A DNA stretch of 64,000 nucleotides from contig NZ_CP032549.1 in NCBI RefSeq assembly GCF_012221945.1, positions 3,100,001 through 3,164,000 of the forward strand, given 5' to 3'. The translations under genes were made by a program, and so were the position numbers. A model generated the notes under the pieces. That model ran no database searches. It saw only the letters and a program-made list of their open reading frames with translations, and was not told where the DNA came from. Within the stretch, counting starts at the first letter, position 1. Each line of letters starts with the position of its first letter. The DNA comes from Glutamicibacter mishrai (lineage in GTDB: Bacteria; Actinomycetota; Actinomycetes; Actinomycetales; Micrococcaceae). Of this stretch, positions 47,845 to 57,829 are shown in pieces.

Positions 47845-48579
47845 CTACTTCGAAACCGACTTGCTGTTGGTGGCAGTTGCCCACGAAGCGGTAGGAATAG
47901 ATAGCCTGTAGGACTTCTTCTTGGACTGCTTGACCGTCAATTTAGCGGTGCCCTTCTTGAGATTCACCGTTTTCAAGGTCTTCCACGAGTTTCCGGATTT
48001 GACCTGGAACTTGGCCTTCTTGGCGTTGTACTGGCCATATCGGTATTTTTCGGGCGAGTAGACCTGGGCCTTGGCGGTCAGTGCGACCTTGCTGCCCGAG
48101 CGCTTGGCGGTCAATGAGCTCTTGGTCTTGCCTCGCACATAGAACGTCTTGCTGGTCCGGTCGGTGTAATCGACGTATTCGGTCCAAGTGCTCTGGTAGT
48201 ACGAATCCCAGTAGCTGTAGGAAGCGGATACGTCCGCCGGACCTACTTTGTAGGCGCCTAGCCCATCCCACGAGGGGCAGATGGTGGCGCGGTCGGAAAC
48301 CTTACGATTTTCAAACCAGAGGGAATGAACGACTCCGCCGTTGCGGGTCACATCGATGATTGCATAGGCGTCGTCATAATCTGACTTGACCTTAGAAGAC
48401 GCCTTGACTGTTACATTGCGGCAGTTCGAATCAGCCACGGTGAGCGATGAAACGGAATAACCGGTGATGTCTATTGGCCGTTCGCTGGCCTGGGCAGGGG
48501 TGGTCCCAGCGATCAGCGTGACCGCGAGAATCAGGCCGGCGGCCGCGTTGCGTACCCTTCGTGCGGTGGGAACTTCCAT
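47845..48579 (-). CDS. Secreted basic protein of unknown function
   Basis: 244 residues, AGGAG six bases before the ATG. Signal peptide NAAAGLILAVTLIAGTTPAQA with cleavage expected after AQA (about residue 32). The mature protein has an aromatic centre (ASYSYWDSYYQSTWTEYVDYTD) and a Lys-rich, beta-strand-like C-terminal third (VKSGNSWKTLKTVNLKKGTA) that resembles wall-binding Ig-like tails of actinobacterial exoproteins. Two cysteines (NCRN, ICPS). No known enzyme motif. Single gene ended by its own terminator. Confidence 0.7.
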   Translation of the reverse strand: MEVPTARRVRNAAAGLILAVTLIAGTTPAQASERPIDITGYSVSSLTVADSNCRNVTVKASSKVKSDYDDAYAIIDVTRNGGVVHSLWFENRKVSDRATICPSWDGLGAYKVGPADVSASYSYWDSYYQSTWTEYVDYTDRTSKTFYVRGKTKSSLTAKRSGSKVALTAKAQVYSPEKYRYGQYNAKKAKFQVKSGNSWKTLKTVNLKKGTAKLTVKQSKKKSYRLSIPTASWATATNSKSVSK

Positions 48580-49873: not shown

Positions 49874-52800
49874 ATGTCTAAGCACCAAAGGCGTGGCACT
49901 TTTATGCCATTTTCGCGCCTTAATCTAATTTCAAGAAAATACAAGTCGCTTATAGCTATCATCTCTTCGTTTGCACTATGCATTGCGATAACCATTCCGG
50001 GAATGGCAGTTGCTGCAGAACCATCCACTGGAGCCGACACCCAGGAAACACAGTCCGCTGACACCAATGAACCTGCGGATGACCAGGGAAAGCCAGCCGA
50101 AGGCTCCGGAGCGACATCTGAAAAGTCCGTGGCGCTCAATTCTGAGCCTGCGCCGGAAACGTCACAAGAGGATGCTCAGCCAACGGTTGCAGCCGCAACA
50201 CCGGCTCCCGTGAAGAAGCCCTCGTCTTCTGAAAAGGACGAGGCAAAGGCAAGCCAAGCGCCAACAGAAACGACTGCTCCTCCTGCCACGGCCGACAGGC
50301 CCACGGTATCCAAGGCACCTGCAGCACCAAGCGAAGAGGCAGCGACCTCGTCAGCTGCCGCAAAATCTGAAAAACCCGATACGCAGGAAATCTCTGCAGC
50401 TGCGCTGGAAACGGGCGAACCGAGGACGTGCGAATACAACTCAGGTACAGGGTCCGTCAACACATTCATGCAGAAGAACGACGCAATGGCCGACTACGCC
50501 AACGGCAATATCAATACCGGATTATATGAAGGCGGCGTTGTTCACCAGCGTATCCAGATGACCCTGCCGGCAGGTGAAAATGAGCTGGTTCTCGTATACC
50601 AAGTCAAGCAGTCCGGTTTGTGGGCCTATGACTATCTGCTGAACCAGTCGGCCACAGGCGCATCGATCAGTACATGGGACGTCGTGGCCGGAACAGGCGA
50701 TGACCGTGAGGACACCGTGTATGTCACGCTCTGGGTTGAAGGCAACGAAGGAGAATCGTCTGCCGTCACCCTATTCTTTGACGCGCATATTGCTTCGGAG
50801 CTGGACCACGGACCTGGAACAGGCGCTTCTTCCATCAACGGTTCTCCGTACCACGTCGAAATTAGCTCTCTGAATTGCGGAGCTATCGGACAGCGCGACA
50901 ACCAAATTCAGGCCAACGGAGTCCAGACCGGCGACGTGACCATTGTCAAAGATGCGCTGCCTGCCGATGGAACCGATTTCGACTTCACGATACATGAAAG
51001 CCATTTCGGAGATTCAACTGGATTCAGCTTGGATGACAGCGCGGATTCCGACACCGGAGCTGAACTACCGTCATCGGTAACCTACTCCGTCGCCCCATCC
51101 ACGATCACGCTCACAGAGACCGATCTTCCCGCTGGATGGAATCTGTCCGATATCACCTGCACGGATAACGGCGCCATTCGAACCGATCTCGCCATCAGCT
51201 TTGAATTGAGCGACAACGAGAAAGTCACTTGTACGTTCGTGAACAACAAGACAACCTACAAGGATCTGACACTTCAAAAGGACGTCAAGGCAACCTTCGA
51301 CCGGGACTACGACTGGCAGCTGGAAAAGTCGCTCGCCGACGGCCAGCAAGCCACGGTCAAATCTTCAGACACTGGAGTTGAGGTCGACTACAACGTCACC
51401 GCGACCGCCAGCGACGCCCAAGACAGCAACTTCGACCTCACCGGGACCATCACGGTGAACAACCCCAATGATGCCTCGATGAGCGGAGTCACGCTTGCCG
51501 ACCAGCTCAACGGGGCCAATTGTGTCATCTCTCTAGGCGGATCACCGATTAGCAATCCTGTCACTGTGGCTCCGGGAGAGACTGTTTACACGTACAGCTG
51601 CGATTTGCCTGACACGACCAGCGCTTCGAGCTCTGGCACGAACATGGTCAGCGCCACCTGGGATGCCGATCTTTACTACGGTACCGACGGTGAAGCTACC
51701 GCATCCGCCGATTACGATTTCGCCACAGTCACCCCGACCGTGACCGATGATGAAGTCACTGTCACAGACAGCGAATTCGATCTGTCGTCAGTTGAAGGCG
51801 GAAACATCGTCACAGTTGAGGACAGCCCGAAAACCTTCGCCTACAGCATCACGTGGGAGGGAGTGCTCGGACAATGTTCCGATTACGTGAACACGGCAAG
51901 CCTGGCAGAGGACGACGGCCAAGTCTTGACGGACGATGCCTCAGTGGAAGTGTGCTTGGGCCAAGACCTGAACATCACCAAAAATGTTGTCTCCAGTTTC
52001 AACCGCAGTTACGACTGGAGCATCACCAAGGACGCCATCGGCGAGCAGCCGTATACTGCCGATCCTGAAACCGGAGAATTCACCGCTGAATATTCCGTCA
52101 CCGTCACCCCAGAAAGCTACTCAGATAGCGACTGGGCCATGAGCGGCCGAATCACCGTGGAGAATCCCAACGATTGGCAATCTGTCTCGGCCACCGTCAC
52201 TGACCAAGTAGATGTTGGTGGAGGCGCAGTTTGCACGATTGGCGGTGTGACGGATCATCCGGAGATCACCGATGCTGATCCAAGCGCTTCAGGATTCCAA
52301 GTAGAGCTGGCCGCCGGGCAAACCTTGTCCTTCGACTACAGCTGCACCTTCGAATCAAAGCCGAACTACGAAGGCAGCAACACTGCCGAAGTCGCTTGGT
52401 CTGCAGATGAAGCATTCACCGCCTCGGGCGATGCCCAAGAAGTAGTGCCCGTGGATGCCGATGATTGGACTCAAACACCGCTGAACGACACCGTCGAAGT
52501 CACGGATACAGTTCACGAGTTTGATCCAGCCTGGATCATCCGCTATTCAGATGGACCGCAAACCAAGACCTATTCGTACACCTGGACGGTCGATGAAGCA
52601 GGCACCTGCCAGACCTTCATGAACACTGCAACCATCACCGGAAGCCACCAGCTGATCAAGAGTGATGATGCAGAAGTCCAGGGCTGCTACGAAGCAGGTC
52701 TGACCGTGACCAAGGATGTCAATGCATCCTATGACCGAACCTACACATGGCAAATCGACAAGCAATTGGCCGAAGGCCAGTCGCCTGATGTCGTGGTGGA

Positions 52801-55800
52801 AGAAGACGGCACAGCCACAGTGAAGTACACGGTGAACGTGGACAACACAGGCTACACCGATTCTGGCCAACAGATCTCGGGCAAGATCACGGTCAACAAC
52901 CCTAACGACTACGAAGATGTTGAAGTCACGGTCAGTGATGAGAACACGCTGCTCGCCCAATGCATCATCAACGCCGAGGACAGCAATCCAGATCTGGCGG
53001 GGGTCCAGCAAATTGTGCCGCGAAATGGTTCGGTTGTTGTTGATTACTCCTGTGATGCTTCGGAAGTAACGGAAGCGGACTACAGTGGCCACAGCAATAC
53101 CGCGACCATTACATGGGGCGACGGGCAAGAAGCCCAAAGCCAGCCAGTGCCCATCGAGTTCACGCTTGATGAAGTAACTGACGATACTGTCGAAGTCTTT
53201 GAAGACAACGCAGATCCCGAAGGTGAAGCCACGCTGTTGGGAACTGTGCATTATGAAGAGGCGCCGAAGTCATTCAACTACGAGATCACTTATGTAGTTC
53301 CTCGCGATGAATGCCTGATCTTCACGAATACCGCTTGGGTGGTTATCACAGGAGATGACATCAGTGATTCACAAGATGTCAGCATCTGTGATCAGAAGAA
53401 TCTGACCATCGCCAAAGACGTGAAGGCCACCTATGAACGGGACTATGACTGGTCTGTCGAGAAACAGGTCGATCAAAGCCGATTCACCGTCGCCGGTGAT
53501 GGAACGGTCACCGCGCATTACACAGTGAAGGCCACCGCGGGTGCGGCTCAGGATTCTGCCAAGCAGGTATCGGGAAGCATCACCATTGCCAACCCGAACA
53601 CGCAAGTTGGCGAGTTGACCGGAACCGTGACGGATCTCGTGTCCATCCCTTCGGCCACCTGCACCATCCTGGGCACAGACGCTGATGAAGCTACGGATGG
53701 CTTCCAGGTAGTACTCGCAGACGGGCAAAGCATCACGCTCGATTACGAATGCACCGTACCGGCTGGCACTGACATCGGTTCGGGCTACGACAACACGGCT
53801 ACCGTGAGCTGGGGTCAAGATCGCCAGGCCCAGGACGTCGTGCCATTCGAATTCGAGCCGGCCAAGCTCACTGATGACAGCGTCAGCGTCATCGATGACA
53901 AGACGATTCCCGGCGAAGAAATATCACTTGGCACCGCAACCGTCCAAGATTCGCCAGCGACCTTCGAATACGATGTTCAGCTTCAGGGCGTAGCCGGAAC
54001 CTGTACCGACTACACGAACACCGCCGTGGTCAACGAAACCACGGATCAGGGAGAAGAAAATACCGCTACCGCGACCACGACAGTGTGCGCCGGAGCCGAT
54101 ATGGACATCTCCAAGAACGTCGTGACATCCTTCGACCGCTCCTACCTCTGGGGTCTAGAGAAGGAACTGCTTTCGGGTGAACCGCTGGCGGCTAATCCGC
54201 AGACCGGCGAAGTCACCGCGGAATACCGCCTCACCGTTACTCCTGAAGGCCATGAGGATGGCAATTGGGCAATGAGCGGCGAGATCACGGTAAGCAACCC
54301 GAACGACTGGCAAGATGCGCCTATCACGGTGCAAGACCTTGCTGATGTCGGTGGGGAAGTCACCTGCACCATTACTTCTGTCCAAGGCGAAGCGGTTGCC
54401 GATATGTCCGAAGAAGAGCCAGGATTCCAGACCGTCATTCCAGCCGGAGCGCAGTGGGTCATGACTTATTCATGCACCTTCGAGTCCCAGCCGGCCTATG
54501 AGGGCCACAACACGGCGACAGTGGATTGGGATGCCCAAGCCCTGAACACAGTCAACGGCGAAGACTCGGCCACGGTCGACATCGCCGAAGGCGATTGGTC
54601 CCAGACTCCGCTGAATGACACCGTCACCATCACAGACAGCCGCTTTGACTTCGATCCAGAGTGGACTGTTGATGTTGAGGATGGCGTACAGAGCCGGGAT
54701 TACTCCGTGACCTGGACGGTAGACGAAGCAGGCACCTGCCAAGTCTTTGAAAATGTCGCTACCCTCACCGGAGACGACGGATTCACCGCCACGGACAATG
54801 AACTTGCCCAGGCCTGCCGTGAGGCAGCGCTGGAAATCAGCAAGAGTGTTGAGGCAAGTTATGACCGAACCCATCAGTGGGAGATCGAAAAGTCTCTTGC
54901 CGAGGGCCAGGACGACAAGGTCACCGTCGACGGCGGAAGCTCAGCGCCAATCAACTACGTGATCACTGTCGAGAACACGGGATACGAAGATTCGGGATGG
55001 ATGCTCGACGGTGTCATCACCATCACCAACCCGAATCAGTACACCAGCATCGATGCCACAGTCCAAGACACCGTGGATCTGGATGGAATCACCTGCACGA
55101 CCAGCCAGTCTGCAGTATCAATTCCAGCCAATGGCAGTGTCGAGGTTGGCTACAGCTGCGATGTCTCAGCTGGAGTGGATCCTTCCTCCTACAGCGGCGG
55201 CACCAACACGGCAACGGTTAGTTGGGGAGATGAACGCGAATCGAGCACCCAGGTGCCAATCGACTTCGCTCTTGACGTCGAAACCGACCGCGAAGTGAGT
55301 GTGTGGGACGACAAATCAAACCCTGACGAACCGGTGCTTCTGCGGAACGTCAGCGTCGATGAGTCGCCAGTGTCCATCGAATACACCGTGGAGCACGAGG
55401 CACCAGCCGGACAGTGCGCCAGCTACACCAACACGGCATGGGTTGATATCCAGGCAGGAGAGGATCCACGAGACGAAGTCACCGTCGAAGTCTGTGGCCT
55501 GCTCGACCTGCTGGTCACCAAGGACGCGGAAGCCAGCTTCGATAGGACCTACCTCTGGGACCTGGAGAAGAAGGCAGATCGCACCGAAGTGACGGTGGCT
55601 GAGGACGGCACGGCTGACTTCTCTTACACCGTCTCGGCGCTGCCGCAAGGTGTGGAAGATTCGGCACATGAAGTTCACGGTACGATCACGCTGATCAACC
55701 CGAACCGATTCGAATCTGCCTCCACCGTTGCGACCGTTGCTGATGAAATCAGCATCGAAGGCGTCACTTGTACAATCCAAGCCGAAGACAGCGACCCGCA

Positions 55801-57775
55801 AACTGAAGGATTGCAGGTTCCGCTGCCAGTTGGGGACGACGGCACTGATGCCACGGTACAGCTGCCATATAGCTGCACGGGAGAACCCGAAGAGCTCTCC
55901 GGCAGCAATACGGTGACTGCAACCTGGGGCGAAGATTCAACAGCCAGCGCAACAGTTCCAGTTGACTACCTGTTGGACGGGGAAACCAACAAACAGGTGA
56001 CCGTCGTGGATGACAAGACCAATCCTGATGAGCCAGTGATCCTGGGTGAAGCAATCTGGAATGCCGAGGGCACCCCGATTGACTTCGACTACACCCTGCG
56101 TCACCAGGCACAGGCCGGTACTTGCACCGAATACACGAACACCGCAGTGATTGAGCAGACTGGCGCGGACGATTCCACGACAGTCACCCTGTGCGGACAG
56201 ATGGCTCTGGGACTGGAAAAGACCGCTGAAGGATTGGTGGATCTGGACTACGAATGGGCAATCGAGAAGCAACTGGATCAAAGCCGGCTCGAATACAACG
56301 AGGACGGCACACTCAATGCCCACTACAGTGTGGAAGCTCGTAACACTGGGGTAGCCGAGAAGAACTTGCGGCTATCTGGAACAGTGACGGTATCGAATCC
56401 AAATGATTTTGATTCCATCACTGCTACGTTGGCTGACCAAGTCAACACCGCCGGCGTCACCTGCCGCATTGATGCGCAAGATGCCGATGAAGCTGCAGCT
56501 GGCCTGCAAGTTGTTATCAATGCCGGAGGGAACTTGGGGGCCCGGTATGAATGCGACCTTGTCAGCTGGCTGACCACCGATGCCTTTGAAGGAGCCGTCA
56601 ACACCGTGACGGCAAGCTTCGAAGGACGGGAAGTCAGCGCTGAAGCATCGATTGATTTCGAGACTGATGAAATCACCGATGAGACAGTAACCGTCACCGA
56701 CGACATGACGAATGCCGAAGGAGAGCCGAAGGTTCTCGGAGAAGTAAATGTCATGCAGTCGCCGCAACTATTCGAGTATGACCTCACCCTCGAACCTGAG
56801 GAAGGAACTTGCACGGTTTACACCAATACCGCAGCCGTCCATGAAGACACGGATGGCAACGGCATGGACGAATCGAGTGTTGATTTCCAGGTGTGCATCG
56901 AGCAGGGGCTGATGGTGGCCAAGAGCGCTGACGCCCAGTATCTGCGGGACTACGATTGGTCGCTTCTCAAGGATGCCAAGCAGACACAGTTCAAGGTTGA
57001 AGCTGATGGGCAAGCCACAGCCGAATACACCGTTGAGGCCAAGCTGGAGGGCTATGAAGATCGGGAATTCACCGTAAACGGCGAGATTACCGTAGCGAAT
57101 CCGAACGACTTCAAGGACACCGAAGTCCTTGTCGAAGACAAGATCTCGCTGGAATCAGCCACTTGCACCATAGAAGGACTGAGCGATGGCAAGATCACCA
57201 TCCCAGCTGGGGAAACCAGCACTCTGAACTACAGCTGTTCGTTCGACGAGCCAGTAGCTGAAGCCGACTACAGCGGTCAGGAGAACCTGGTGAATGTCAG
57301 CTGGAGTGATGAGAATGGGGAAGCTCAGACAGTCAGTGCCACCGCCCCGCTGGACTTCGAAGCCACTGAAGTCCATGACGAGAAGGTGACCGTCCTCGAC
57401 GATTACGCCAACCCAGGCCAGCAACGGGAGCTGGGCACCGTAACCGCCGACGAGAAGAGCAAGAAGTTCACGTACACAATGGACCTGGCTGGCGTGGCCG
57501 GCAAGTGCCAGACGTGGACCAACATCGCTACCGTTGAAGAGTCCTCCTCGCAAGATGAGAACAATTCGGATTCGGCAGACGTGGAGGTTTGCTCCGAGGC
57601 ACCGCAGGCTGCACCACCGGCTGAGCCGGAACCACCTGCAGCACCGCCGGCCCGGCCAACACCATTGGCCGCAACGGGCATGGATGAAGGAATGTTGTGG
57701 CTGGTGGGTTCAGCCTCGATGATCATCATCGCAGGAGCGTTGATGTTGCTCCGCTACCGCCGCCGGACCCAGTAG
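49874..57775 (+). CDS. Giant cell-wall-anchored repeat protein with LAATG sorting signal
   Basis: About 2,633 residues. Start ATG at 49874 has GGGGGAA upstream. Order: signal peptide (about 1-48, SLIAIISSFALCIAITIPGM then AVAA); disordered Ala/Pro/Ser/Thr/Glu region (about 49-180); a beta-rich domain (about 185-355); a prealbumin/SpaA-like domain (about 355-460: GDVTIVKDALPADGTDFDF, ITLTETDLPAGWNL); nine tandem repeats of about 234 residues (about 462-2576); a Pro/Ala linker; LAATG at 2598-2602, a membrane helix and RYRRR. LAATG fits the LAXTG signal of class E sortases, so it should be linked to peptidoglycan. Each repeat reads like a pair of Ig-like sandwiches with four cysteines. Likely an adhesin or stalk; no ligand-binding domain recognised, no sortase nearby. 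Confidence 0.9.
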   Translation: MSKHQRRGTFMPFSRLNLISRKYKSLIAIISSFALCIAITIPGMAVAAEPSTGADTQETQSADTNEPADDQGKPAEGSGATSEKSVALNSEPAPETSQEDAQPTVAAATPAPVKKPSSSEKDEAKASQAPTETTAPPATADRPTVSKAPAAPSEEAATSSAAAKSEKPDTQEISAAALETGEPRTCEYNSGTGSVNTFMQKNDAMADYANGNINTGLYEGGVVHQRIQMTLPAGENELVLVYQVKQSGLWAYDYLLNQSATGASISTWDVVAGTGDDREDTVYVTLWVEGNEGESSAVTLFFDAHIASELDHGPGTGASSINGSPYHVEISSLNCGAIGQRDNQIQANGVQTGDVTIVKDALPADGTDFDFTIHESHFGDSTGFSLDDSADSDTGAELPSSVTYSVAPSTITLTETDLPAGWNLSDITCTDNGAIRTDLAISFELSDNEKVTCTFVNNKTTYKDLTLQKDVKATFDRDYDWQLEKSLADGQQATVKSSDTGVEVDYNVTATASDAQDSNFDLTGTITVNNPNDASMSGVTLADQLNGANCVISLGGSPISNPVTVAPGETVYTYSCDLPDTTSASSSGTNMVSATWDADLYYGTDGEATASADYDFATVTPTVTDDEVTVTDSEFDLSSVEGGNIVTVEDSPKTFAYSITWEGVLGQCSDYVNTASLAEDDGQVLTDDASVEVCLGQDLNITKNVVSSFNRSYDWSITKDAIGEQPYTADPETGEFTAEYSVTVTPESYSDSDWAMSGRITVENPNDWQSVSATVTDQVDVGGGAVCTIGGVTDHPEITDADPSASGFQVELAAGQTLSFDYSCTFESKPNYEGSNTAEVAWSADEAFTASGDAQEVVPVDADDWTQTPLNDTVEVTDTVHEFDPAWIIRYSDGPQTKTYSYTWTVDEAGTCQTFMNTATITGSHQLIKSDDAEVQGCYEAGLTVTKDVNASYDRTYTWQIDKQLAEGQSPDVVVEEDGTATVKYTVNVDNTGYTDSGQQISGKITVNNPNDYEDVEVTVSDENTLLAQCIINAEDSNPDLAGVQQIVPRNGSVVVDYSCDASEVTEADYSGHSNTATITWGDGQEAQSQPVPIEFTLDEVTDDTVEVFEDNADPEGEATLLGTVHYEEAPKSFNYEITYVVPRDECLIFTNTAWVVITGDDISDSQDVSICDQKNLTIAKDVKATYERDYDWSVEKQVDQSRFTVAGDGTVTAHYTVKATAGAAQDSAKQVSGSITIANPNTQVGELTGTVTDLVSIPSATCTILGTDADEATDGFQVVLADGQSITLDYECTVPAGTDIGSGYDNTATVSWGQDRQAQDVVPFEFEPAKLTDDSVSVIDDKTIPGEEISLGTATVQDSPATFEYDVQLQGVAGTCTDYTNTAVVNETTDQGEENTATATTTVCAGADMDISKNVVTSFDRSYLWGLEKELLSGEPLAANPQTGEVTAEYRLTVTPEGHEDGNWAMSGEITVSNPNDWQDAPITVQDLADVGGEVTCTITSVQGEAVADMSEEEPGFQTVIPAGAQWVMTYSCTFESQPAYEGHNTATVDWDAQALNTVNGEDSATVDIAEGDWSQTPLNDTVTITDSRFDFDPEWTVDVEDGVQSRDYSVTWTVDEAGTCQVFENVATLTGDDGFTATDNELAQACREAALEISKSVEASYDRTHQWEIEKSLAEGQDDKVTVDGGSSAPINYVITVENTGYEDSGWMLDGVITITNPNQYTSIDATVQDTVDLDGITCTTSQSAVSIPANGSVEVGYSCDVSAGVDPSSYSGGTNTATVSWGDERESSTQVPIDFALDVETDREVSVWDDKSNPDEPVLLRNVSVDESPVSIEYTVEHEAPAGQCASYTNTAWVDIQAGEDPRDEVTVEVCGLLDLLVTKDAEASFDRTYLWDLEKKADRTEVTVAEDGTADFSYTVSALPQGVEDSAHEVHGTITLINPNRFESASTVATVADEISIEGVTCTIQAEDSDPQTEGLQVPLPVGDDGTDATVQLPYSCTGEPEELSGSNTVTATWGEDSTASATVPVDYLLDGETNKQVTVVDDKTNPDEPVILGEAIWNAEGTPIDFDYTLRHQAQAGTCTEYTNTAVIEQTGADDSTTVTLCGQMALGLEKTAEGLVDLDYEWAIEKQLDQSRLEYNEDGTLNAHYSVEARNTGVAEKNLRLSGTVTVSNPNDFDSITATLADQVNTAGVTCRIDAQDADEAAAGLQVVINAGGNLGARYECDLVSWLTTDAFEGAVNTVTASFEGREVSAEASIDFETDEITDETVTVTDDMTNAEGEPKVLGEVNVMQSPQLFEYDLTLEPEEGTCTVYTNTAAVHEDTDGNGMDESSVDFQVCIEQGLMVAKSADAQYLRDYDWSLLKDAKQTQFKVEADGQATAEYTVEAKLEGYEDREFTVNGEITVANPNDFKDTEVLVEDKISLESATCTIEGLSDGKITIPAGETSTLNYSCSFDEPVAEADYSGQENLVNVSWSDENGEAQTVSATAPLDFEATEVHDEKVTVLDDYANPGQQRELGTVTADEKSKKFTYTMDLAGVAGKCQTWTNIATVEESSSQDENNSDSADVEVCSEAPQAAPPAEPEPPAAPPARPTPLAATGMDEGMLWLVGSASMIIIAGALMLLRYRRRTQ
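51257..57603 (+). repeat. Nine tandem protein-coding repeats (about 700 bp each)
   Basis: Approximate starts: 51257, 51958, 52687, 53392, 54091, 54820, 55498, 56199, 56896. Each opens with a variant of L-x-[IVL]-x-K-[DNS]-V-x-A-[ST]-[FY]-D-R-x-Y-x-W-x-[IL]-E-K, has GxITVxNPN about 75 residues later, a C-x-I ... YSC pair, and GxCxxYxNTA ... VC at the end. Copies are well diverged in DNA. Spacing of 729 bp for both repeats 2 and 5, plus shared sequence, indicates that 2-3-4 and 5-6-7 are copies of one block. Confidence 0.85.
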
Positions 57776-57790
57776 TCCCTCGGCAACATA

Positions 57791-57829
57791 GCGAATGCCG
57801 GATCAGCCATAGGCTGATCCGGCATTCGC
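57791..57829. terminator. Bidirectional terminator
   Basis: GCGAATGCCGGATCAGCC / GGCTGATCCGGCATTCGC, 18-bp perfect stem with a 3-base loop, between the surface-protein gene and ilvD. Confidence 0.9.

Follow-up and report, generated by a model that had tools for sequence, protein, structure and literature searches.

A wall-anchored Glutamicibacter protein with nine proposed interwoven double Ig-like repeats and candidate isopeptide bonds

The gene at 49874..57775 of the window (the whole 64,000-nucleotide stretch of Glutamicibacter mishrai DNA analysed here) probably encodes a fibrillar adhesin or tether that is anchored by a class E sortase and has a stalk of interwoven double Ig-like modules, each with two candidate isopeptide bonds. 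We hold this overall reading with good confidence. Chances seem about even that the module represents a new isopeptide architectural class, found in at least two phyla, in which a single beta-strand carries two cross-links in pseudoknot order (7-135 across 23-210) and two interwoven sandwiches are welded into a nearly inextensible unit, a 'cable' rather than reinforced beads. We infer bond formation, mechanics and adhesive role from sequence.

The reading frame runs uninterrupted between the ATG at 49874 and the stop at 57775, giving a product of 2,633 aa, and the source genome is a single 3.57-Mb contig. Six further genomes in the genus carry relatives with open frames. Because a protein-database cluster that is 100% identical over the searched region (P0001, 2,623 aa) begins ten codons downstream, the assignment of the start codon is uncertain. 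The initial annotation described a 2,633-residue wall-anchored protein with nine large repeats of about 234 residues, and the intact frame, the repeat anatomy and the sorting signal bear this out. The parts it named are all present: signal peptide and disordered stretch (as judged by eye), SpaA-like domain (PF24514) and sorting signal (LAATG). A further predicted folded domain, the distal head, lies between the disordered stretch and SpaA_4 and was absent from that description. The features are as follows; triads are given as Lys-Asp/Glu-Asn sets, storey 1 before storey 2.

49874..57775, + strand: gene for the wall-anchored repeat protein (open reading frame; relatives in the genus)
49874..50017, + strand: signal peptide, about aa 1-48, ending ...CIAITIPGMAVAAEP (read by eye from the sequence)
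50018..50404, + strand: A/E/P/S/T-rich stretch, presumably disordered, aa 49-177 (read by eye from the sequence)
50447..50920, + strand: distal 'head' domain, about aa 192-349, predicted all-beta
50936..51250, + strand: SpaA_4 (CnaB-like) domain, aa 355-459, candidate triad K359-E415-N457 (PF24514, E 2.4e-10)
51260..51961, + strand: repeat R1, aa 463-696, triads K469-D543-N590 and K485-D632-N673; first storey-1 Cys absent (I552)
51962..52693, + strand: repeat R2, aa 697-940, triads K703-D777-N836 and K719-D878-N917
52694..53395, + strand: repeat R3, aa 941-1174, triads K947-D1022-N1075 and K963-E1110-N1152; Glu for the second Asp (at E1110 the alignment may slip by one, Asp being the next residue)
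53396..54094, + strand: repeat R4 (modelled), aa 1175-1407, triads K1181-D1254-N1307 and K1197-D1341-N1382; Cys pairs C1263/C1293 and C1377/C1405
54095..54823, + strand: repeat R5, aa 1408-1650, triads K1414-D1488-N1546 and K1430-D1588-N1627; 50% identity to R2
54824..55501, + strand: repeat R6, aa 1651-1876, triads K1657-D1732-N1778 and K1673-D1812-N1853; 44% identity to R3
55502..56200, + strand: repeat R7, aa 1877-2109, triads K1883-D1957-N2012 and K1899-D2046-N2089
56201..56902, + strand: repeat R8, aa 2110-2343, triads K2116-D2188-N2243 and K2132-D2276-N2318; without the Arg15-Asp55 pair (L2124, E2162)
56903..57601, + strand: repeat R9, about aa 2344-2576, triads K2350-D2422-N2471 and K2366-D2509-N2550
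57602..57664, + strand: Pro/Ala-rich linker, aa 2577-2597, ahead of the sorting signal (read from the sequence)
57665..57772, + strand: LAATG sorting signal, hydrophobic stretch and RYRRRTQ tail, aa 2598-2633 (sequence)

The SpaA_4 domain scores 41.6 bits against a cut-off of 27.3 and is a member of that family; its triad residues K359, E415 and N457 are invariant in all 12 aligned sequences. At the other end, the protein has the parts of a sortase-anchored surface protein (LxxTG motif, hydrophobic stretch, basic tail), and a matching class E sortase is encoded in the same genome (245.6 bits, cut-off 160). The LPXTG_anchor profile passes when the short tail is scanned alone (19.0 bits, cut-off 15.9) and fails in the whole-protein scan (13.4 bits). 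The sorting signal of the initial annotation is therefore present, and its type is corrected here to LAxTG. This motif points to class E sortase and not to the enzyme usual for LPxTG (PMC5148588).

The nine repeats span aa 463-2584, measure 226-244 aa each and share 28-50% pairwise identity. A profile built from them recovers every repeat in the genome at E <= 1.5e-79, which, as the profile comes from those same nine, shows only their mutual likeness. Both triads are carried by all nine repeats, with the single Glu-for-Asp exception in R3; together with the SpaA_4 triad this gives 19 candidate isopeptides per chain, as counted from sequence. Tandem Repeats Finder (TRF) detected no tandem array in the DNA (longest TRF period 500, below one repeat), and a DNA repeat search found nothing beyond short diverged families, which suggests that the array is old. 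The identities between R2 and R5 and between R3 and R6 retain a period of three repeats. Elsewhere array length shifts by blocks of three: in L068 the protein sequence of repeats 3-5 is 100% identical to that of repeats 6-8, and P0008, with 13 repeats, has three more than P0010, with 10.

Homologues were surveyed with the nine-repeat profile. Within the genus, 7 of 18 genomes are positive (the source genome included), with 7 to 11 repeats each. Positives number 18 of 245 genomes (3 of 32 genera) in the family sample, 15 of 347 genomes (8 of 104 genera) in the order sample and 13 of 396 genomes (12 of 237 genera) in the phylum sample, where the weakest matches are partial (E down to 6e-4). Named relatives include Glutamicibacter nicotianae NBRC 14234 and Arthrobacter sp. 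MYb214, whose best segments match at 73% and 70%, respectively. Three protein searches, which scored about 8,000 candidates each and so give lower bounds, returned at least 315 distinct proteins (one of the searches contributing 120 of its 129 matches) and at least 1,297 repeat rows; the 1,230 rows covering at least 170 columns were used and 67 were dropped. When repeats longer than 150 aa are counted, 310 proteins are listed, 43 of them with one repeat, and the maximum is 16. Most proteins carry no source name. Among the matches listed, named bearers are mainly Actinomycetota (Nocardioides, Georgenia, Tessaracoccus, Paeniglutamicibacter, Zhihengliuella, Microbacterium, Corynebacterium vitaeruminis), with some Chloroflexota (Chloroflexi, Anaerolineaceae, Herpetosiphonaceae). 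The C-terminal motif of the 315 proteins listed, fragments included, is LPxTG in 61, LAxTG in 29, another LxxTG in 9 and none in 216.

The end of the gene adjoins ilvD in five of the seven gene-bearing genomes of the genus (G000, G006, G007, G011, G015). Gene and ilvD lie on different contigs in G017, and in G005 the query with ilvD gives no more than a 42% match, located elsewhere. In four relatives that lack the gene (L080, L082, L083, L084; IlvD 96-97% identical), the blocks that correspond to the window at about 48-49.7 kb and at 57.8 kb are separated by 0.2-0.5 kb. In other gene-less relatives, such as L087, L088 and L089, nothing within 1.5 kb matches the 48-50 kb side.

The N-terminal head differs from genus to genus, while the repeat array is retained. 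This bears on whether the repeats are themselves adhesive, through ligand binding or cell-to-cell zippering, rather than a passive spacer. Such a role would be compatible with the module build proposed here, but we consider it unlikely given the variable head and retained array, and given that the most conserved repeat positions (K, W, Y, G, N, D, Cys) are of the core-filling kind.

AlphaFold2, run on R4 alone with an alignment of 83 repeats, gave a confident model (mean pLDDT 97.2, pTM 0.83). DSSP assigns strands at 4-25 and 37-65, which far exceed an Ig strand in length. In the model, strands A (about 4-25) and B (about 37-65) would pair as one long antiparallel hairpin extending through two beta-sandwiches. 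Storey 1 would consist of the hairpin base plus residues about 72-152, and storey 2 of the hairpin tip plus residues about 153-233. This two-storey build is new relative to the initial annotation. The signature reported there, K-V-x-A-x-[FY]-D-R-x-Y-x-W-x-x-E-K, holds and corresponds to strand A; the lysines that open and close it are the proposed isopeptide lysines K7 and K23.

As a line of evidence separate from the model, although drawn from the same family, we ran a mean-field coupling analysis (1,230 repeats, Meff 949, 25,878 pairs). The top 466 couplings include 40 pairs between strands A and B, and 36 of these form an antiparallel ladder with i+j of 67-74 that spans 4-67 to 25-42 (for example 9-60, 14-57, 18-52 and 22-49); the remaining four involve near-invariant columns. 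The strongest coupling of all joins the signature Arg (R15) to the Asp at column 55. Beyond residue 70, 27 of 28 top couplings of strand-A residues 12-26 go to 153-233 (3 of the 27 pair near-invariant columns), as do 56 of 59 from strand-B residues 27-50. Strand-B residues 57-68 send 37 of 49 long-range couplings to 72-152 and 12 to the other storey, and strand-A residues 3-11 divide theirs between storey 1 (15 of 23) and the other storey (8). We therefore propose, from the agreement of AlphaFold2 and covariation, that the repeat is one interwoven double Ig-like module and not two beads.

Residues 226-233 couple with the hairpin tip (27-44), and residue 3 couples with 75, 77 and 141, which places the termini at opposite ends. 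We infer that modules stack end to end as a straight rod. Couplings 3-233 and 6-233 may reflect contacts between adjacent repeats. If 21 strand steps of about 0.33 nm are taken per module, its length is estimated at roughly 7 nm, or about 65 nm for nine.

Profile searches support the earlier description of the repeat as an unassignable type on a wall-anchored stalk. The repeats of the window protein stay below the cut-off of every Pfam family (SpaA_4, outside the repeats, is the sole Pfam pass in the protein), no NCBIfam family passes in a scan of the whole protein, and no Pfam family exceeds its cut-off in ten divergent repeats checked in detail. The absence of a named family holds, but the repeat is not wholly isolated, as storey 1 is remotely related to DUF7507 (CLIPPER_2). 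This is the only near-threshold Pfam match among the repeats (a divergent relative scores 26.5 bits, where the cut-off is 27; the second detailed match reaches 18.3 bits). The whole protein is unmatched by CLIPPER (PF01345) or CLIPPER_2 (PF24346) at E <= 1 and falls outside both profiles. When 83 repeats were scanned, 32 Pfam families matched at least one member at E <= 0.1; the most matched, among the matches listed, were DUF7507, fn3_5 and DUF11, with three each. DUF7507 alone stands out by E-value (best E 6.7e-6, against 0.0035 for DUF11), and 80 of the 83 repeats have no match to it at E <= 0.1. Single weak matches were to DUF7617, DUF7601, AgI_II_C2 and SpaA_4. These four, with DUF7507 and DUF11, are isopeptide families in Table 1 of PMC12617251, but we do not take the weak matches as pointing to isopeptide families alone, since fn3_5, BACON_2, aRib, Big_9 and others appear too. 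An hhalign comparison with DUF11 (87% probability over 44 columns, using a 53-column profile from the same proteins) is taken as a hint only.

Several other candidates were rejected. Pfam matches of the whole protein to CUB_CDCP1, CRLF2_D1, DUF3145 and Cadherin_pro fall below cut-off, and the PDB sequence matches, to glutathione transferase Xi (E 0.039 and 0.05), are not significant. LEA_2/WHy homology, suggested by an NPN motif and by labels on P0034 and P0042, was set aside as LEA_2 does not match the window protein at E <= 1. Our searches of an open-access library turned up no description of this repeat family or of its topology. Isopeptide domains were surveyed in 2025 across AlphaFold DB models, with 26 Pfam families listed (PMC12617251); because these models stop at 1,280 residues, the 2,633-aa protein was beyond the reach of that survey. 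Shorter relatives need not have lain outside the survey. In kind, the repeat would be an isopeptide-braced stalk domain, as a new family and with a new topology.

Conserved Lys-Asp/Glu-Asn triads are found in both storeys, in interleaved order: K7-D81-N135 in storey 1 (triad 1) and K23-D169-N210 in storey 2 (triad 2). After removal of rows 70% identical, 789 repeats remained, of which 27 (triad 1) and 8 (triad 2) were excluded for gaps. Triad 1 is complete in 660 of 762 repeats (frequencies: K7 0.875, D81 0.895, N135 0.879), and its loss is concerted: 22 repeats keep two residues, 21 keep one and 59 keep none, compared to 1.2 with none expected by independence. The 59 are spread over 41 proteins, and triad 2 is complete in 57 of them. 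In total, triad 1 is down to one residue or none in 80 of 762 repeats, about one in ten. Its pairs rank 2 (K7-N135), 3 (D81-N135) and 5 (K7-D81) among the 25,878 couplings, and fall to 10345, 7442 and 1901 after one column shuffle; the crossed pairs K7-N210 and K23-N135 rank 5041 and 2753. In the 147 rows of the second search alone, the three pairs rank 16, 12 and 13. In a 429-row set, phi for K7-N135 is 0.84 within the same repeat and 0.13-0.25 with repeats one or two places off.

Triad 2 is complete in 772 of 781 repeats; five repeats keep two residues, one keeps one and three keep none. Joint loss of all its residues is confined to three repeats of one protein, P0054. We rejected the coupling analysis as proof of triad 2, because its ranks (43, 35, 51) are near those of shuffled columns (119, 77, 46); without P0052 and P0054 the ranks are 158, 241 and 162. 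The neighbour control is likewise non-discriminating (phi 0.81 within a repeat, 0.77 with the preceding repeat; 429-row set). As triad 2 is near-invariant, the argument for it is made from its invariance, from the placement of strand-A residues 12-26 in storey 2 and from the joint loss in P0054.

It is conceivable, though quite unlikely, that the fold is right and the Lys-Asp-Asn sets are non-covalent hydrogen-bond or salt-bridge networks in one or both storeys. The charged pair R15-D55 covaries just as strongly, and a pilin triad, that of the FimP N-domain, can remain unbonded in the crystal (PMC3485203). However, triad 1 agrees with known isopeptide triads in its residues, its spacing and its concerted, all-or-none loss. 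In addition, the near-invariant W19 could be an aromatic cap, although capping of K23 is a guess; such a cap is reported for 84% of CnaA-like domains (PMC12617251).

Two Cys pairs also covary (90-120, rank 6; 205-231, rank 12). C90 and C120 are both present in 608 of 786 repeats, both absent in 168 and mixed in 10. For C205/C231, both are present in 582 repeats and C231 only in 7, with 200 of 789 rows gapped at C231; this pair is weakly tested because many alignments end before C231, which is never absent in 589 rows. In all gap-free rows, redundant ones included, triad 1 is reduced to at most one residue in 29 of 251 repeats at the first position, 31 of 653 at middle positions, 47 of 246 at the last position and 1 of 43 that occur singly, a pattern consistent with a local, position-dependent role for the putative bond.

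CLIPPER and CLIPPER_2 are, like the repeat, stalk domains of long surface proteins with the order Lys-Asp-Asn, and the match to them is weak. The spacing in CLIPPER is K-D 33 and D-N 58 (K715/D748/N806; Table 1 of PMC12617251). If the hairpin tip (columns 13-55, 43 residues) is left out of storey 1, its K-D and D-N spacings become 31 and 54, near these values. A CLIPPER domain has one bond in one sandwich of about 100-120 aa (PMC12617251). The repeat departs from this plan: model and covariation indicate a 233-aa module with two sandwiches on one shared hairpin and two candidate bonds in interleaved order. It is very unlikely that the repeat is no more than a tandem pair of self-contained CnaA-like Ig domains, each with its own isopeptide as in CLIPPER arrays, for although storey 1 resembles CLIPPER_2, and CLIPPER and CLIPPER_2 often alternate in tandem (PMC12617251), K23, the lysine of the second domain, precedes the entire first domain, and strand A is predicted as one 22-residue strand whose distal half couples with the second storey (27 of 28).

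The interwoven module also differs from other braced stalks. Among the FimP/SpaA-type pilins of Actinomyces and Corynebacterium, FimP has consecutive domains with one strand running on and each lysine within its own domain, whereas in the window protein the two storeys would share the entire A-B hairpin and both lysines are on strand A, before either storey is complete. FimP is polymerised by a pilus sortase, whereas the window protein is a single polypeptide. The giant adhesin of Mobiluncus mulieris is likewise one chain with a covalently braced stalk; its 51 Ig-like domains contain isopeptide, ester, disulfide and thioester bonds (PMC10619420). They follow Spy0128/Cpe0147 patterns, in which every domain is one sandwich and has an isopeptide or ester bond to itself. 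Two Ig domains are interwoven in one chain in the CD19 double Ig fold and the MXRA8 AB-swap as well, but these are vertebrate receptors with other strand exchanges, and an inverter domain in CD19; the available text of PMC8470474 does not mention isopeptides. SpaA_4 (PF24514) occurs once in the window protein and in many repeat-bearing relatives, as a separate CnaB-like domain that is not the repeat.

In the proposed arrangement, class E sortase would link the C-terminus to peptidoglycan, and a rod of nine like-planned modules would hold the head domain and SpaA_4 off the cell. Within each module K7 would bond N135 spontaneously, with D81 assisting, inside storey 1, and K23 would bond N210 in the same way, with D169 assisting, inside storey 2; disulfides C90-C120 and C205-C231 would further clamp the storeys. 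A pull would enter via the already extended strand A, cross K23-N210 at the far end and exit through C205-C231, which would keep residues 24-204 and 211-230 off the load path. K7-N135 would fasten storey 1 to strand A, also off the load path. The repeat would add to the isopeptide families a stalk module with two bonds on one strand, and could be a template for very stiff protein rods.

We counted the shortest covalent route through a module. It takes 232 steps in the bare chain, 178 with disulfides only, 46 with isopeptides only and 31 with both. K7-N135 alone gives 105 steps and K23-N210 alone 46, and the K23 route is no shorter when K7-N135 is added. With both bonds formed, force would thus pass through about 31 of 232 residue steps, and the stalk would be an almost unstretchable tether. 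By these counts the candidate load-path bond, K23-N210, is the one almost never lost, and the dispensable bond, K7-N135, is off the path. This poses a testable mechanical question, namely why triad 2, load-bearing by the path count, is nearly always kept (772/781) when roughly a tenth of repeats have lost the off-path triad 1.

Across the arrays of all relatives, loss of triad 1 (K7-D81-N135, with at most one residue left, all gap-free rows being counted and redundant ones included) was roughly four times commoner in last repeats (47/246) than in middle repeats (31/653). Residues of triad 2 (K23-D169-N210) were gone from some repeats of two Arthrobacter proteins, P0052 and P0054, and repeats of P0054 had lost both triads while retaining all four cysteines (C90/C120 and C205/C231). 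These two proteins therefore provide natural test cases for the candidate Lys-Asp-Asn isopeptide cross-link.

The array of one relative bears on how repeats are gained.

G087, contig C1, 2353000-2367500: repeat array of a relative (L068)

Because its repeats 3–5 and 6–8 share 100% protein identity, the sequences point to a very recent three-repeat duplication.

In G017 and G005, the giant gene lies away from ilvD, in contrast to the other five carriers; its chromosomal place is therefore not fixed within the genus. Two features flank it in the window.

47845-48579 (-): small ORF beside the giant gene, its start resembling a signal peptide
57786-57829: short segment lying between ilvD and the giant gene

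The DNA surrounding the small ORF is conserved in relatives without the giant gene. Two relatives (loci L079 and L081) carry a match to the short segment in the opposite orientation, as would be expected of a bidirectional terminator.

Two further loci lie in carrier genomes.

Window's own genome (G000), contig C1, ~3.2155 Mb (beyond the window): pilin-like ORF and, beside it, a class C sortase (L057)
G015, contig C1, 1446000-1454500: second repeat-carrying gene of a relative (L072)

The pilin-like ORF, read by eye, has a C-terminal LPLTG and lies beside the class C sortase; the genome that carries the giant gene thus seems to have a conventional sortase-assembled pilus locus as well. The second gene of G015 encodes two divergent repeats, a different head and an LPLTG signal.
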